32,486 nt of DNA from Aneurinibacillus terranovensis DSM 18919 (GTDB lineage Bacteria > Bacillota > Bacilli > Aneurinibacillales > Aneurinibacillaceae), in NCBI RefSeq assembly GCF_000430625.1, contig NZ_AUMJ01000065.1:1-32486 (forward strand), given 5' to 3'. The notes beneath the pieces are model-generated. The model did no database searches and was not told where the DNA came from. It saw only the letters and a list, made by a program, of their open reading frames with translations. The position numbers were made by a program, and so were the translations under genes. Position 1 is the first letter of the stretch. Each line of letters starts with the position of its first letter. Shown here piece by piece: positions 5,624-32,486 of the stretch.

Positions 5624-6238
5624 TTAGTATCCAGATTCTTGCCGGGTGTGATTTACTTTGTTTTTCTCAAAATAAGCTTGTTCAATTTGTTCCCAGGTGA
5701 AGCCGAGTTCTGCACCAAGTCCGATGAAACTACCTGCATAAATACTCCATGCTAATTCTTTATTGTCGTGTTCTATCACCGAATCAGCGTTTTTCATTAG
5801 CTTAATAAATCTTATCGTGATGCTACGAATATCTTTGTTTGGAGGACACGGCGTTACATCAATATCAGTCGATACACCAACTTGCAATCCAATCGAAAGG
5901 ATAAAATGCAGACAATCAACGTATTCTTCAAGTAGAGGATTTTTGTCTATCACAAGGTATCCAGCACACGTTTCGCACCAATAATTTTCTTCTTTCGGTG
6001 GATTGTATCTTGAAAAACCACGTTTCGCACAATCTGGGCAACTATCTCTTTTAAATGTTCTCGGTTCCCGATCATTGCTCCAATGTTTAAATCCGCGCCA
6101 CTCATTGGCGAGCTCCCCAAGCTCCGCCTGCAGAGCCAGAATTGTATTCGGCATCAAATCCTGTCCTTCCAATCCTTTTTCCTTGATGATGTGTGCATTT
6201 AGTTCCCGCTGCATTTCAAATAGTTTTGATAGATTCAT
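5624..6238 (-). CDS. Dimeric dUTPase with zinc-finger insert
   Basis: This 204-aa all-alpha NTP pyrophosphatase of the dimeric dUTPase family has the metal-binding helices QAELGELANEW (about 37-47) and EEYVDCLHF (about 104-112). It ends in the family's nucleotide loop, KNKVNHTRQESGY. The reaction is dUTP to dUMP and pyrophosphate, which keeps uracil out of phage DNA and feeds dTMP synthesis. Between the two catalytic helices is an insertion with CPDCAKRG and CETCAGY, a CxxC...CxxC zinc ribbon that most family members lack. The four acidic metal ligands appear intact. The start has AAGGAGGACG upstream. Confidence 0.9.
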   Translation of the reverse strand: MNLSKLFEMQRELNAHIIKEKGLEGQDLMPNTILALQAELGELANEWRGFKHWSNDREPRTFKRDSCPDCAKRGFSRYNPPKEENYWCETCAGYLVIDKNPLLEEYVDCLHFILSIGLQVGVSTDIDVTPCPPNKDIRSITIRFIKLMKNADSVIEHDNKELAWSIYAGSFIGLGAELGFTWEQIEQAYFEKNKVNHTRQESGY

Positions 6239-6319
6239 GCTTTACGTCCTCCTTTAATTGGCTATTCGGATTTTATGGTGGAAATGGGTGTTTTAATTTC
6301 CAGTCTTATATTGCGTATT

Positions 6320-6514
6320 TTATTCGTACTGTTCATCATAGTATTTGTACTCACTTCGGGTCCGTTGACAAATCGAATTTGCCGTTTCTTCTGGATAGTA
6401 GCCTGAATAGTAGTAATCCCTGACCATATCCATGTCAATGGAATCTACGTTCCCACCACTCATCCATACATCGAAAGTGACATCTGCTTTGTAATCTTCG
6501 AATTTACGACTCAT
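6320..6514 (-). CDS. Small tyrosine/aspartate-rich phage protein
   Basis: The protein is 64 aa from the ATG at 6,514, chosen because GGAAGGGAG lies eight bases upstream. It contains DMVRDYYYSGYYPEETANSI and ends EYKYYDEQYE. The many Tyr and Asp residues are distinctive, but no family is recognised. It is in the same minus-strand run as the methyltransferase. Confidence 0.55.
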   Translation of the reverse strand: MSRKFEDYKADVTFDVWMSGGNVDSIDMDMVRDYYYSGYYPEETANSICQRTRSEYKYYDEQYE

Positions 6515-26280: not shown

Positions 26281-26442
26281 CTACACTATAGACATTAGAA
26301 TCTCATTCTCAATGCATCTTGCTGCGTATGTAGCCAGTTTAGTTCCTTTATCTTTCTGGTAACTTTCAATCGCTTTGATTAATCCGATTGTGCCAATAGA
26401 GATCAGGTCTTCGCTATCTTCACCGGTGTTTTCAAATTTCTT
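26281..26442 (-). CDS. sigK: sigK middle segment (codons 68-116), interrupted on both sides
   Basis: Read on the minus strand from 26,442, this encodes [20 protein letters not shown], then [20 protein letters not shown] and RCIENEILM, followed by three foreign codons and TAG. It covers sigma-70 region 2 (core binding and -10 recognition) of the late mother-cell sigma factor. The segment has no start codon of its own and continues the N-terminal part at 31,269-31,478 exactly, after removal of the 4.8-kb element. The C-terminal half (regions 3-4) is not in the window. The protein is needed for late spore coat and cortex gene expression. Confidence 0.92.
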
Positions 26443-26460
26443 GAGGTTGTGAACAAAATC
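26431..26460. other. Attachment junction 1 (recombinase-proximal)
   Basis: The core TCTT (26,439-26,442; AAGA on minus) is shared with the other junction. The element side carries the arm TGTGAACAAA (26,448-26,457). The sigK side continues into codons for KFENTG. The recombinase stop codon (26,432-26,434) lies across the core, within sigK sequence. Confidence 0.88.
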
Positions 26461-28069
26461 CAATGTTTTTATCTTGCCTTAATTGATCATACAATCCGAT
26501 GGAGGTGACAACCATTTCTTCATCATTCTCAAATTTTATAATGATTTCGTCAAACATCATTTCGATAATGTTACGTTTGATTTCAAACGGCACTTCCTCA
26601 TTGGATTTAAGCTTTTCCCTAATTTTTTCGATCATACTATAAATTTGTTCTACAGTCAGTTCTTCCATACGATGAGCCTGTATTTGCCGTTCATTTTTAT
26701 TGATTTCTGCTTTCAACTCTTTTATTTCAGCCTTATATTTGTCTACGTACCACTCGAATCTTTCCTTATCCTCATTATCATCTACTTCGAAAAGAGCTAA
26801 TTCGGCTTTTTCCCTTGCCGATTCCTTTTTCTTTAATTCTTTCTCCAAAAGTTCAATTTTTTCCCGCACCCCATCTATAGACTCTTCACCCTGACCTTTG
26901 ATTCGCTTTACAAAATCCTCTGGATTAGTTATAATTTCCAACATTTGATTCCAGATGTATTCTTCCAATATAGCCGCACGTATGGATGGGACTTCACACT
27001 TTTTGACTTCGGGTCCATATTTCTTTGGAAACTTATTAGGACAGCGATAGCAACGATAGCGTTCCTTTTCACCAGTACTTTTATCTTCTCTTCCACTGTA
27101 TGTTGTCGCTTGGTAATTCCTTCCACAATGACCGCATTTGACAATTGATTTTAATAAATATTCAAATTTTTTATTGCCTACATGTTTATTTTTATCATTG
27201 ATTTCCCTTTGTTGCTGGGCTAACTCCCAGATCTCAAGATCCACAATCGGCGTAACTTCCACGACTAACCATTCTTCTTCTGGGCGTATAGTGTAGGTCT
27301 TTTTAGGATTTCCGTTTTCGGTCAATTGTCCGCGAACTTTTTGGGTTTCACGCCTATTGTAGTAGTAATTGCCAATATATATTTCTGATGTTAATACCCT
27401 ACGAATACTGGAAGCACTCCAATTATTACTTTCACCACGCTTGGGTTTTACCCCGAGTTTATAAAGGCGTTCTCCGATTTCTCTCATCGTCAGCTTTTCG
27501 AAAACATACCATTCATACATCATTTGGACATACTCTTTCTCTTTCGGATCCGGAATTAATTGACCTTCTTGGTCCTTGTCGTAACCGAATGGCGCAACTC
27601 GCATTGGCATAATTTTTTTATCTTTTTTTACCTTCTCTAAACGTCCCCTCACCGTCCGCTTTCGAATCAATGCCAATTCATAAGAAGCAATAGCTGACAT
27701 AATGTTAAAGAACAGCTTTCCTTCAGGAGAATCGTTAAAATCTGTGTCGGTGAAATGAAGTTCCGCACCATTCTTTTCAAATTCACGACAAACAATTAAT
27801 TTATCAGTTAAATCACGGCTCAAACGGTCAGGATGGACACATATCACCCATGAAATCAGTCCTCTTCCTACATCTTCCCTAAGTTTCATTAAAACAGGGC
27901 GGGTATCAATATCTTCTCCACTCCGTCCTTCTTCGCGATATACTCTTATATTTGATTCATAGTAGCCCATCTCAAAGGCTTTTTGCTTGCATAACTGAAT
28001 TTGTTTTTCGATACTGGTATTGTCTACCTGACCCATTGTACTTACACGAACATATATTCCAACAGCCAC
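26432..28069 (-). CDS. Large serine recombinase (SpoIVCA-like), C-terminus truncated by integration
   Basis: This is a 545-aa protein as integrated. Catalytic Ser10 is in [19 protein letters not shown] carries the conserved active-site arginines, and a recombinase domain begins near [15 protein letters not shown] zinc ribbon ([17 protein letters not shown]) and a coiled coil ([20 protein letters not shown]) complete the large-serine-integrase plan. The GTG start at 28,069 has AAGGTGA six bases upstream. It is the best candidate for excising the 4.8-kb element from sigK during sporulation. Its last residues (Q-E-I) and stop come from host sigK; in the excised circle the frame continues for 31 further codons (31,180-31,280). 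Confidence 0.93.
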
Positions 28070-28138: not shown

Positions 28139-28161
28139 AGCCACCTTATTTGCTGGCGGCT
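28139..28161 (-). terminator. Weak terminator-like hairpin after the companion gene
   Basis: AGCCACC (28,139-28,145) pairs with GGCGGCT (28,155-28,161) with one mismatch; on the minus strand TCTTTTCTTT follows. It overlaps the end of the 48-aa gene and may reduce read-through into the recombinase. Confidence 0.5.
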
Positions 28162-28292
28162 CCTTGGTACAATACATTTTTTAATATATAGTCAATTATC
28201 ATTTCCTTTTTGGACTGAGCTTCAAGCATTTCTTTATCGCTATAGTCAACTCTGTTCGGTACGTAACGAATGATTAGATCTTTCTTTTTCAC
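28146..28292 (-). CDS. Small protein upstream of the recombinase; candidate directionality factor
   Basis: A 48-codon frame from GTG (28,292) encodes MKKKDLIIRYVPNRVDYSDK, then EMLEAQSKKEMIIDYILKNV and a short tail. AGGAG lies about ten bases upstream; a further GTG at 28,301 is too close to it. It is on the recombinase strand, 76 bp ahead. Serine integrases often have an unrelated small recombination-directionality factor encoded nearby. Size, charge and place fit, but no homology is recognised. Confidence 0.6.
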   Translation of the reverse strand: MKKKDLIIRYVPNRVDYSDKEMLEAQSKKEMIIDYILKNVLYQGAASK

Positions 28293-28301
28293 GGTGACCA
28301 C

Positions 28302-28615: not shown

Positions 28616-28840
28616 TTAGTACTTGAAGATAAACGAGGATATAAGGCTATCAAACAGGACATAAGAAGCCCATGCTCCCGCGTGTAGCGCTTGTTTGAGA
28701 AGATCGTAGGGTCGCTCTGCATCGCCCTTGTACTGAAAGTAGCACACGTAATCGTCGGCGTATCTAATCATACTCGCATCGCCTCGGCACGCTTTCTTTA
28801 CTGTAACCTCAAACCATAAGTCCAAGGCGTAATTTTACTC
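28616..28840 (-). pseudogene. Group II intron reverse transcriptase/maturase fragment
   Basis: The frame contains YALDLWFEVTVKKACRGDAS and MIRYADDYVCYFQYKGDAER, the YADD active-site block of LtrA-type reverse transcriptases. It is bounded upstream by an in-frame stop and loses similarity after RPYDLLKQA, about 50 residues of a normally 400- to 600-residue protein. It is a decayed remnant, evidence that this element has been hit by an intron in the past. Confidence 0.85.
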
Positions 28841-29160
28841 TTTTCGAGGCTCAATCACTTTCAGGCCTACTATCTGGCTGTCTACGCTTAACGTCTGAAA
28901 TTACTTCCAACGCGTCCAAGACTCGCTATTGGTGGCTTGGCTTTAGCCTTTTCAAGCAGGATTTCCACCTGCTAAAAACTTCACAACCTAGGCTTGGTCG
29001 CACCGAAAGTTGAGTTAATAACTATTACCAATGCTAAAGATACCAAAATAAATATATACATTAACTTTCGGCATAACATATTGTGTTCATCCTTTAGTCT
29101 AGTTATTTTAGCTTAATTGCAGTATTTTCACATACTCTAAGCCTCTTTTATGAGCAATAA
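28841..29160. other. Mobile-element debris flanking the intron remnant
   Basis: No gene is visible. A stem AGCAGG/CCTGCT (28,955-28,960 with 28,968-28,973) and nearby sequence resemble the non-coding flank of a mobile element, possibly part of the decayed group II intron. The right part is plain AT-rich spacer. Exact identity cannot be told from the sequence alone. Confidence 0.4.
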
Positions 29161-29189: not shown

Positions 29190-29714
29190 TTATTGGTATT
29201 CCGTCTCCTTCCTTCTCTCAATTTCTATTTTTTGTATCACCCAAAGTAAGCGTTGTTGTTCTTTGGGATTTACTTCAATGAAGTCGATTCCATAAAAAAT
29301 ATCGTTCATCAGCTCCTCTTTTCGCACAATCTTTCCTTTAAAAGAAAACTCCTCATCATGAAGCACAAAATGGAGTTGCAAAAAAATCTGTTTTTTGACA
29401 GGCAAATCAAATTCACACCTCAATTTCATACCTGTACGACTGATGTTCTTTATCTTCCCTTCTCCTTTTCTATGCTTTAATGGTTCCAGCAATTTATCAC
29501 CAAAATCGATAAGCTCAAATGTGCATTCCTGATCGAGAAGTTTTATTCGAAAAGCCCTTCTTCTTTCCTTATCTTTCAATTTGGCTTGCAGGTCAGTCAA
29601 CGACTCTTTGAATGCATTGATTTGGTCATCCTTTTTTCTTAATTGCCTTACATAGAACCCGTGTATTAAAAAAAGTATCAGTATCATCAAAAATGCAGTC
29701 AGCACTATTTCCAT
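29190..29714 (-). CDS. Membrane-anchored PilZ-domain protein (c-di-GMP receptor)
   Basis: The 174-aa protein begins with one membrane helix (IVLTAFLMILILFLIHGFYV) and a short coiled coil (DQINAFKESLTDLQAKLKDK). The PilZ domain follows: RRAFRIKL supplies the RxxxR motif and NISRTGMKL the (D/N)xSxxG motif that bind c-di-GMP. YGIDFIEVNPKEQQRLLWVI closes the barrel. It lies 21 bp after the EAL gene's stop, so both are probably one operon. It likely senses c-di-GMP at the membrane; the output partner is unknown. Confidence 0.85.
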   Translation of the reverse strand: MEIVLTAFLMILILFLIHGFYVRQLRKKDDQINAFKESLTDLQAKLKDKERRRAFRIKLLDQECTFELIDFGDKLLEPLKHRKGEGKIKNISRTGMKLRCEFDLPVKKQIFLQLHFVLHDEEFSFKGKIVRKEELMNDIFYGIDFIEVNPKEQQRLLWVIQKIEIERRKETEYQ

Positions 29715-29735
29715 ATAACAAACTTACCCTTTCTT

Positions 29736-30452
29736 TTAGTGAATCCCGTTGATCGGTAAGGGTTCCCCCAATAAGTATCCTTGCCCTAAATGAACGCCCA
29801 ATACTTTAGCCATCGCTAAATCCGTTGGCTCTTCAATCCCTTCCAAAATCAATTTCATATGCTTCTCCTGGCAAAGCTTCAAAAGCATTTGAATCTCGTT
29901 TTGTTTATTCTTTGAAGCGGATAACTTTACAGCATAATATCGATCCAACTTAACAAAGTCTGGCTCAAGTTCAATGACAGTTTGCAACGATGATTCCCCT
30001 TTACCGTAATCATCAAGCGCAATGGCATACCCCTTATCCTTCAAAAAATGTACCGCTTTTCTGAGTAAACCCATGTCCGATACTTTTTCTGCTTCGTTAA
30101 TTTCAAACACAATGTTTCGATTAGAGAAGCATACGCTATTGAGTTTTCCCAAAAAATCGGGAAAAGTAGGGTGAACCATAGTCGAAGGATAAACATTCAA
30201 AAACAATCGGATATCCCGTGTATCAACCGAAGTCAGAGCATGATGAATTGAGCAAATATCCAAATCATACAATCTGTTTTTTTCCATTGCCAATCGAAAA
30301 AGCAATTCGGGATTTTCAAAAAACCGGCAACGTAACAACGCTTCATACCCAAATACTTTCCAATTTTTCATTACGTACAGCGGTTGAAAAACATGCTGAA
30401 ACATTTTCTTTCGTATGATGTCCTCTAAAAGCATTTCATTTGCGTCTGACAT
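29736..30452 (-). CDS. EAL-domain c-di-GMP phosphodiesterase
   Basis: The product is 238 aa from the ATG at 30,452 (AGGAG eight bases upstream; earlier residues in frame lack a site). Catalytic residues appear intact: the EAL motif in YEALLR, Asn in FLNVYP, Glu in VFEINE, Asp-Asp in ALDDYGKGESS, Lys in FVKLDR, Glu in LEGIE and Gln in GQGYLLGEP. It hydrolyses c-di-GMP to pGpG. It is a stand-alone EAL without sensor or GGDEF domains. It sits in the element splitting sigK, beside a PilZ receptor. Confidence 0.9.
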   Translation of the reverse strand: MSDANEMLLEDIIRKKMFQHVFQPLYVMKNWKVFGYEALLRCRFFENPELLFRLAMEKNRLYDLDICSIHHALTSVDTRDIRLFLNVYPSTMVHPTFPDFLGKLNSVCFSNRNIVFEINEAEKVSDMGLLRKAVHFLKDKGYAIALDDYGKGESSLQTVIELEPDFVKLDRYYAVKLSASKNKQNEIQMLLKLCQEKHMKLILEGIEEPTDLAMAKVLGVHLGQGYLLGEPLPINGIH

Positions 30453-30631
30453 AGTAAAAACTCCTATTTTTTCACTTAAATTACCAATTGTTTTAGTGAT
30501 TAATAGTACTAACGGCATTGGTATTTATGCCTAAAAATAATACTTATAGTATATCATTTTTTATTTTCAATATCTATTGTCTCTTGGGAGAGTCTAAAGA
30601 ATAAAGCTACAGTTACCTAAGAGGTGGTAAA

Positions 30632-30970
30632 ATGAGTGATTTGCCAAAGCTTATTGGAGAGCGGATTCGAAATTTCCGCAAAGAAAAGGGATTGAGCCAA
30701 GAGGAATTAGCCCACTTAGCCAATCTACATACTACATATATTGGGCAGTTGGAACGTGGAGAGAAAAACGCAACTTTGGAAAGTGTAGAAAAGGTGGCAA
30801 ACGCCCTGGGGATTTCGTTAGAAAACCTCTTTCGGTCTATCCACTCTAATCCAGATTCTCAAGAGTATACATTGTCCCGAATCGTCACCTGCTTGCAAAC
30901 AAGAAGCATTGAGGATCAAAAAATCTTCCTCAATTTACTGTATCTATTGCTGGACTGGAAAGAGCAGTGA
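30632..30970 (+). CDS. XRE/SinR-like regulator
   Basis: The 112-aa protein starts MSDLPKLIGERIRNFRKEKG, then LSQEELAHLANLHTTYIGQL, an XRE HTH. The C-terminal helical part, EDQKIFLNLLYLLLDW, probably dimerises. GAGGTGG lies before the ATG. It is divergent from the EAL-PilZ operon across about 180 bp of AT-rich DNA and is the natural candidate to control it. SinR-like repressors govern biofilm and sporulation decisions in Bacillus, so a link is plausible. Confidence 0.85.
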   Translation: MSDLPKLIGERIRNFRKEKGLSQEELAHLANLHTTYIGQLERGEKNATLESVEKVANALGISLENLFRSIHSNPDSQEYTLSRIVTCLQTRSIEDQKIFLNLLYLLLDWKEQ

Positions 30971-31126
30971 AAAACATTCGGTTATCAAGTATTCTTGAGA
31001 TGTCAGAAAAAAATGAGGCGGAAGCATACTTTCCGCCCTTTATTTCATATTGCCTATTCAACGTCATGATTTTTTGCCTGCATCCCGTCCATAGTAGTCA
31101 CTTTACTCCAAATATTTTCCCCATAA

Positions 31127-31179: not shown

Positions 31180-31280
31180 TCAGCTAACCTCCACGATCGT
31201 GTTATCCCTCTCAACCTTCTTCAGCAAAAGCGTTGTTGAATAGATAACTATCTTACGTTTCACTTTGTTCACATTCTCTT
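31180..31280 (-). CDS. Stranded 3' end of the recombinase gene (31-codon tail)
   Basis: Read from the AA of the core at 31,280 in the recombinase frame, the sequence encodes [32 protein letters not shown] and then TGA. A GTG at 31,272 could start a 30-codon peptide, but it has no proper ribosome site. In the circular element this frame is continuous with the recombinase, replacing its final Ile by 31 residues (575 aa in total). Beta-strand composition and the terminator right after it suggest it is the genuine C-terminus. Confidence 0.8.
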
Positions 31281-31905: not shown

Positions 31906-32181
31906 TTAGCTATCGAGCCTGTTCCATGCTCTATCTATGATTAGGCTAACAGTCGCAATCCTTTCGTGTAGCCTTGCTACTTTCAATCGCTGTTTGCGCC
32001 AACGATTAGACCCTTTCTTTCTGCGTGACAAAATACGCTGTTCCCTGGCTAATTTTTCTAAGGCTTGACGATAGAAACGAGGGTAATTGGTTTTCTTACC
32101 TTCTTCGCTATCAACAAATAACCCATTCGAAGAAGTGATGGTATGCTTCCTTTCTTTCAGCCAGCATTTTGTTGTAGACAA
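31906..32181 (-). pseudogene. tnpB: TnpB (IS200/IS605 OrfB) fragment
   Basis: The 91-residue frame contains NYPRFYRQALEKLAREQRIL and SRRKKGSNRWRKQRLKVARL followed by HERI, the well-conserved middle of TnpB RNA-guided nucleases. The N-terminal HTH, the RuvC DED residues and the C-terminal zinc finger are missing and the frame ends abnormally. It is a decayed remnant, with no tnpA beside it. Confidence 0.88.
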
Positions 32182-32217: not shown

Positions 32218-32223
32218 TTTTGT

Positions 32224-32486
32224 TTAGAGAATATCCGATAGTCTGTACTTTATGCCATGTACTCCCTCATAATATTCCGGATACATTCGTCCACCACATT
32301 TTTCGCATGAAAACATCGGGGGAGTGGTTGGATCTCCATCGTCCATTAAGTCAAAGTCCCTTACAACACTTAAAGGAATTTCCTCTTTTTCATGACACGT
32401 TAAACAAACAAAGCTGACGCTCTGTTTCTTGGACTGGTTTAGATTTATGTTTTTCTTCTTTTTCTTCCCTTTTTGACGGGTTTTTG
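32224..32486 (-). CDS. Zinc-ribbon protein, 5' end outside window
   Basis: The frame is open to the right edge and ends at TAA (32,224). It encodes a Lys-rich segment, then FVCLTCHEKEEIPLSVVRDF and FSCEKCGGRMYPEYYEGVHG, giving CxxC...CxxC typical of a zinc ribbon. Small proteins with EIPLSVVRDFD and MFSCEKCGG occur across Bacillales with unknown function. Followed by a strong terminator. Confidence 0.7.
   Translation of the reverse strand, partial: KTRQKGKKKKKNINLNQSKKQSVSFVCLTCHEKEEIPLSVVRDFDLMDDGDPTTPPMFSCEKCGGRMYPEYYEGVHGIKYRLSDIL

Follow-up and report, generated by a model that had tools for sequence, protein, structure and literature searches.

The question raised by this locus is how a set of c-di-GMP signalling genes came to lie inside sigK, and whether these genes take any part in the excision of the DNA that carries them. 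The window, i.e., the whole stretch of DNA analysed (32,486 nucleotides), is contig C47 of a draft assembly that totals 4.25 Mb and counts 98 contigs. The sigK gene of this genome was present as three pieces, with two interrupting elements, A at codon 70 and B at codon 118. The earlier note had placed the signalling genes between two sigK parts: their flanking position was correct and the count was not, as a third piece was located on contig C38.

31278-31487, minus strand: sigK piece 1, residues 1-70 (TIGR02846 match and tblastn)
26296-26439, minus strand: sigK piece 2, residues 71-118 (profile match and tblastn comparison)
C38:4289-4660: sigK piece 3, C-terminal, residues 115-238
31277-31280, minus strand: AAGA core, sigK-N junction of element A
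26439-26442, minus strand: AAGA core, sigK-middle junction of element A
1-26281, no strand given: part of element B, a prophage splitting sigK at codon 118 (ParA, DNA methyltransferase, RecE-like exonuclease, antirepressor)

Both junctions were set against the intact sigK of genomes G003, G005 and G010 (loci L059, L060 and L062). Joined at AAGA, the pieces gave an unbroken alignment to the intact relatives, with 82-87% identity, and the joined protein showed that removal of the element would restore the sigK frame, as in a skin-type element. The promoter region upstream of piece 1 was conserved, as an alignment of ACAGGCAC..CATA to the 5' ends of other sigK genes showed. As sigK is split by an island and by a prophage, two pieces of DNA need to be excised before it can be read. 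Further upstream of sigK, a remnant of an IS605 OrfB transposase was seen at positions 31906-32181. A segment of 92 bp, at about 32220-32310, was identical and in the same orientation to the last 92 bases of C38; this repeat, near the right ends of both C47 and C38, breaks the assembly and may be the mark of another phage remnant.

Element A measured 4,838 bp from core to core. Next to the signalling genes it contained the following features.

26432-28069, minus strand: large serine recombinase, 545 aa (Pfam Resolvase/Recombinase/Zn_ribbon_recom)
28146-28301, minus strand: 51-aa ORF, candidate recombination directionality factor, with a similar small ORF in G002 and G004
28344-28336: 9-mer ATAGGACAT upstream of the 51-aa ORF, also found upstream of the site-1 recombinases of G002 and G004
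28616-28825, minus strand: group II intron reverse-transcriptase remnant (YADD; ORF read directly, no Pfam match)
28797-29003, minus strand: group II intron remnant (Rfam RF02005, 67.3 bits at 28797-28965; 5' boundary GTGCGACC at 29003)

The recombinase was located at the sigK-middle end, its final codons and stop falling within the sigK sequence, and a site-specific serine recombinase adjoining the junction is what is seen in skin-type elements. The predicted attP, or circle junction, contained a perfect 9-bp inverted repeat, TTGTTCACA/TGTGAACAA. At the same sigK codon in G002 and G004 the recombinases were 50-52% identical to that of element A and the cargo was different; the G004 site-1 island covers about 15 kb, with cytosine methyltransferase and tyrosine-recombinase-like genes (ORFs judged by reading). 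No phage structural or replication gene was detected with Pfam between the cores of element A, and only the recombinase matched a phage integrase family. Element A shows no sign of a prophage origin, a trait of most described skin elements which is not a strict one, since gin is non-phage.

The cargo consisted of three genes, all open and without interruption, and flanked by sigK residues. Their Pfam domains agreed with the unit made of an EAL enzyme, a membrane PilZ protein and a divergent regulator that the earlier note had described.

29736-30452, minus strand: predicted EAL c-di-GMP phosphodiesterase (Pfam EAL, E=1.6e-41; ORF 29736-30518)
29190-29714, minus strand: predicted PilZ receptor with a hydrophobic N-terminal segment (Pfam PilZ, E=4.6e-10, 40.2 bits for a cut-off of 22.5)
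30632-30970, plus strand: HTH (XRE/Cro) regulator, 112 aa (Pfam HTH_3, E=4e-16; orthologues 63-94% identical)
30540-30582, minus strand: candidate tandem operator (AGACAATAGATAT at 30570-30582 and ATACTATAAGTAT at 30540-30552, starts 30 bp apart)
31016-31038, both strands: terminator-like hairpin after the HTH gene (consensus match only)

The start of the EAL protein was re-set from 30518 to approximately 30452 (MSDANEM, 238 aa) using the orthologues and a GGAG ribosome site. The EAL signature and the catalytic residues N, FE, DD, K, EG[IV]E and Q were all present in an alignment to 6ifq and the orthologues, and three intact orthologues (from two Anoxybacillus species and G015) likewise kept them all. 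The protein is therefore predicted, from its residues, to be a c-di-GMP phosphodiesterase, as had been supposed, and no sign of an inactive enzyme was seen. Stand-alone EAL phosphodiesterases provided the closest references: PDB 6ifq was the best solved-structure match (E=4.7e-23), with the same catalytic residues, and RimA was the best NCBIfam model, yet at 89 bits for a cut-off of 430. Unlike these, the EAL protein of element A is paired with a PilZ protein and with its own HTH regulator. The PilZ gene followed after a gap of 21 bp, and both c-di-GMP motifs were present in its product, RxxxR as RRAFR and (D/N)xSxxG as NISRTG; a solved PilZ relative was not found by sequence search. Eight further full EAL proteins and about ten GGDEF proteins are encoded by the host, and an added phosphodiesterase may therefore have a small net effect.

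The regulator had been called SinR-like, and this identity did not hold. The SlrR model gave 36.1 bits, far below its cut-off of 250, no SinI domain appeared among the Pfam matches, and the match to SinR (1.4e-8) was poorer than that to C.BclI (1.4e-13). The restriction-modification controllers C.BclI and C.AhdI were the best solved matches of the HTH domain, and a two-box operator is shared with such proteins, with ACT-N3-AGT in the second box here. Unlike C.BclI and C.AhdI, the 112-aa regulator possesses an extra C-terminal region and has a c-di-GMP operon as its neighbour; the ORFs and Pfam matches of the island revealed neither a restriction gene nor a methylase gene, and we do not class the regulator as a controller protein. 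The gap between the HTH and EAL genes contained two copies of AKACNATARRTAT, and the candidate operator overlapped the extended -10 TGATATACT of the EAL promoter (a promoter-like match). The operator pair and its spacing were kept in orthologous loci whose EAL proteins were as little as 53% identical, some of these loci having one or two mismatches, a conservation which may be partly due to the shared ancestry of the intergenic region. A whole-genome search gave no such pair outside the HTH-EAL gap; single boxes were matched at four other places, no more often than in the backwards control. A relative of the HTH protein (63-65%), with a similar operator box, was observed near another serine recombinase in locus L087 of G009 (512-2065 and 6115-6450), where EAL, PilZ and GGDEF were all missing.

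A fourth gene, which the earlier note had missed, was recognised directly after PilZ.

29014-29079, minus strand: GGDEF diguanylate cyclase remnant, first 22 residues (68% identical to the cyclase of L041; a 6-kb search gave E=4.5e-6)

The reading of the cyclase runs into the group II intron start GTGCGACC at 29003, and no remainder of the gene was found. Cut to 22 residues at the intron remnant, the cyclase is lost and the cassette is left able only to degrade. The gene order is that of L085; in G063 the order is HTH, a broken EAL, PilZ and a 274-aa membrane GGDEF protein. Such loci elsewhere in the Bacilli suggest that the ancestral module contained HTH, EAL, PilZ and a GGDEF cyclase. A search with the HTH protein among 399 genomes of the class gave seven others with a relative, and a search of named contigs showed module relatives in two Anoxybacillus species and in Tepidibacillus. 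At an ordinary locus of G015 the three-gene order was kept (identities of 49% for PilZ, 53% for EAL and 72% for HTH), and partial copies were observed in Anoxybacillus, Tepidibacillus, G042, G063, G195 and G309. The earlier note had suggested looking for these genes at other loci; they occur at unrelated loci in distant Bacilli, with no sigK in the flanks read.

The two enzymes were compared over nine loci. EAL was intact without GGDEF in four (the window, L038, L039 and L057) and GGDEF was intact with a defective EAL in four others: EAL was broken in L041 and L085, absent in L086, and substituted at catalytic positions in L056 (DD to DH and EGIE to KGIE). In L084 neither enzyme was intact, and none of the nine loci had both. 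As the nine loci are not independent lineages, this exclusivity is a lead, not a test. The module seems to be a regulated c-di-GMP cassette of a kind not described before, with alternate loss of the synthesising and the degrading enzyme. The same distribution could be that of a passive, decaying cassette with no current role, on its way out as in several related loci: its GGDEF partner has been destroyed, an intron remnant adjoins it, and EAL is lost, broken or substituted in five of the nine loci. Here, against this, the three genes and the operator are intact, with the catalytic motifs of EAL and those of PilZ conserved. We regard simple decay as unlikely. A bolder generalisation, for which we would claim only a small chance, is that the HTH-operator cassette controls either a phosphodiesterase or a cyclase, never both, and moves between loci; the sigK island would have captured the phosphodiesterase-only version, and c-di-GMP breakdown would be encoded in all cells except the excising mother cell, coupling the signal to the sporulation fate.

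The earlier note had also proposed that these genes could let the element alter biofilm, motility or sporulation timing and, by that route, its excision. In such a scheme, recombinase expression or the timing of sporulation would be set by the HTH protein or by the level of c-di-GMP. The module is indeed located on the island. In C. difficile, early sporulation falls when c-di-GMP is high (PMC8653836), so that a phosphodiesterase could favour it. However, the operator pair, private to the HTH-EAL gap, is absent near the recombinase, which leaves control of excision by the regulator unsupported, and on this ground we discarded a role of the HTH protein in governing the recombinase. In addition, the module is found away from sigK, in places that have no sigK island, and the parts read of site-1 islands with a homologous recombinase contained no module. 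The recombinase has a candidate directionality ORF of its own: a similar small ORF, preceded by ATAGGACAT, was present upstream of all three site-1 recombinases compared. We take this 9-mer to resemble a SpoIIID box. The strict sigma-E promoter pattern had no match upstream of the recombinases, so that the shared SpoIIID-like ATAGGACAT is the single pointer to control in the mother cell. Steering of excision by the cargo appears very improbable.

As to the origin of the cargo, the genomes of the family and order that were searched, those with an intact sigK included, gave no orthologue at E<=1e-80, and the nearest EAL proteins within the family were 47-51% identical. The GC content of the module was 36.9%, compared to 44.8% for the host DNA beside sigK on C38. 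Phage and plasmid matches of the EAL protein were all distant (26-39% identity, among the matches listed), which led us to reject a phage or plasmid origin of the module, and a search of IMG/VR gave no relative. The module is best read, from these comparisons, as horizontally acquired, in agreement with the element-borne signalling cargo of the earlier note. That ancestral host genes were trapped by the splitting of sigK is hardly credible, as the genes lie inside the two att cores and are absent from those genomes of this family and order that were searched and have an uninterrupted sigK.

Most likely, then, a small skin-like element here carries a phosphodiesterase and a receptor as acquired cargo. 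We propose the following working. In vegetative cells, the HTH protein would bind the tandem operator over the divergent promoter and control the EAL-PilZ operon; the EAL enzyme would hydrolyse c-di-GMP, and the membrane PilZ protein would sense it. The module would once have had a diguanylate cyclase and, the gene being truncated at the group II intron, the present copy could reduce c-di-GMP but not make it. During sporulation, in the mother cell, the recombinase and the putative directionality factor encoded upstream of it would remove the island at AAGA and put sigK back in frame at codon 70; for the prophage at codon 118, a second, independent excision would be needed. The cargo would have no control over excision, travelling with the island and staying in the forespore lineage. 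Taken as a whole, the model of a c-di-GMP module acquired as cargo on a 4,838-bp non-phage sigK island, mobilised by its own serine recombinase, is in our opinion probable.

The remainder of element B was found on C38, with its recombinase, lysis- and tail-type genes (by reading) and sigK piece 3. As C47 and C38 are not joined, the size of element B (at least 61 kb) and its order are deduced from orientation. Its recombinase (L017 4681-6294) is overlapped at its start, by about 100 nt, by a 65-aa ORF (L017 6086-6283), and the same small ORF was present in G001, G002 and G008. Across 15 genomes of the order, sigK interruptions occurred at codon 70, codon 118 and about codon 143-146, each site having its own recombinase lineage, that of codon 118 being of the skin-like type. 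G000, G002 and G008 had two elements in sigK, G004 three, and the others one or none; a missing short middle sigK piece suggests two elements in G006 and G007. In G004 (C4:968625-1056873, loci L052, L068 and L069, and L055) sigK was in four pieces, with elements at codons 70, 118 and about 146 and a large serine recombinase beside each sigK boundary. An IMG/VR contig displayed the same arrangement. We found no report of sigK with more than one intervening element in the searchable literature (subscription papers being outside its scope). Codon-118 elements of G002 and G004 also carried a polysaccharide deacetylase-like cargo gene (L051 8552-9532 and L055 6675-7625). A different situation was observed in G005, where three extra copies of the sigK promoter with residues 1-70, 5-6 kb apart (L061 1692-1895, 7415-7618 and 13849-14052), precede an intact sigK, which is followed by an additional 3' fragment of sigK (L062 837-1535 and 5783-6058). 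Between the extra copies a recombinase of the element A type was missing, and these repeats look like islands which reconstruct the gene and do without excision.

From these observations, a sigK island seems able to carry signalling genes while being very small and free of phage genes, and unrelated recombinase elements of one genome seem able to interrupt a single essential sporulation gene at two or three separate sites. The observations raise testable points on the ordering and coordination of several excisions, and on island genes useful to the vegetative cell.

Element A shares with skin of B. subtilis (spoIVCA/skr) and skinCd of C. difficile (CD1231/CD1234) a recombinase adjoining the junction, a short core repeat, in-frame rejoining of sigK on predicted excision, and a small ORF upstream of the recombinase that is a directionality-factor candidate. 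The layout of this ORF and the recombinase resembles skr-spoIVCA and CD1234-CD1231 (PMC6957869, PMC5025042), and by analogy its function may be similar. Skr has 64 aa and a 101 nt overlap with the spoIVCA start (PMC6957869), which the 65-aa ORF of element B resembles in its size and overlap. Unlike skin and skinCd, element A is only 4.8 kb in size, sits at codon 70, carries c-di-GMP cargo, is without recognisable phage genes except the integrase-type recombinase, and shares its sigK with a second element. The gin element in gerE of Bacillus cereus ATCC10987 is also a non-phage island of low GC in a mother-cell gene, with serine recombinase and a cargo that varies between relatives, as does that of element A; it differs by its size of 28.6 kb, its three serine recombinases, its restriction-modification system and its gerE target (PMC5595907). 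The Alicyclobacillus phage MMB025 (PMC13141910) has, like element A, sigK as its target, a 4-nt core flanked by inverted repeats and a recombinase beside the site, in a 105-kb infectious phage; its integrase and the recombinase of element A shared 33% identity over 70% of the length. The kind of element is thus known, and what is new lies in the detail: a minimal phage-free sigK island, a regulated phosphodiesterase-receptor cassette minus its cyclase, and a sigK gene split twice.
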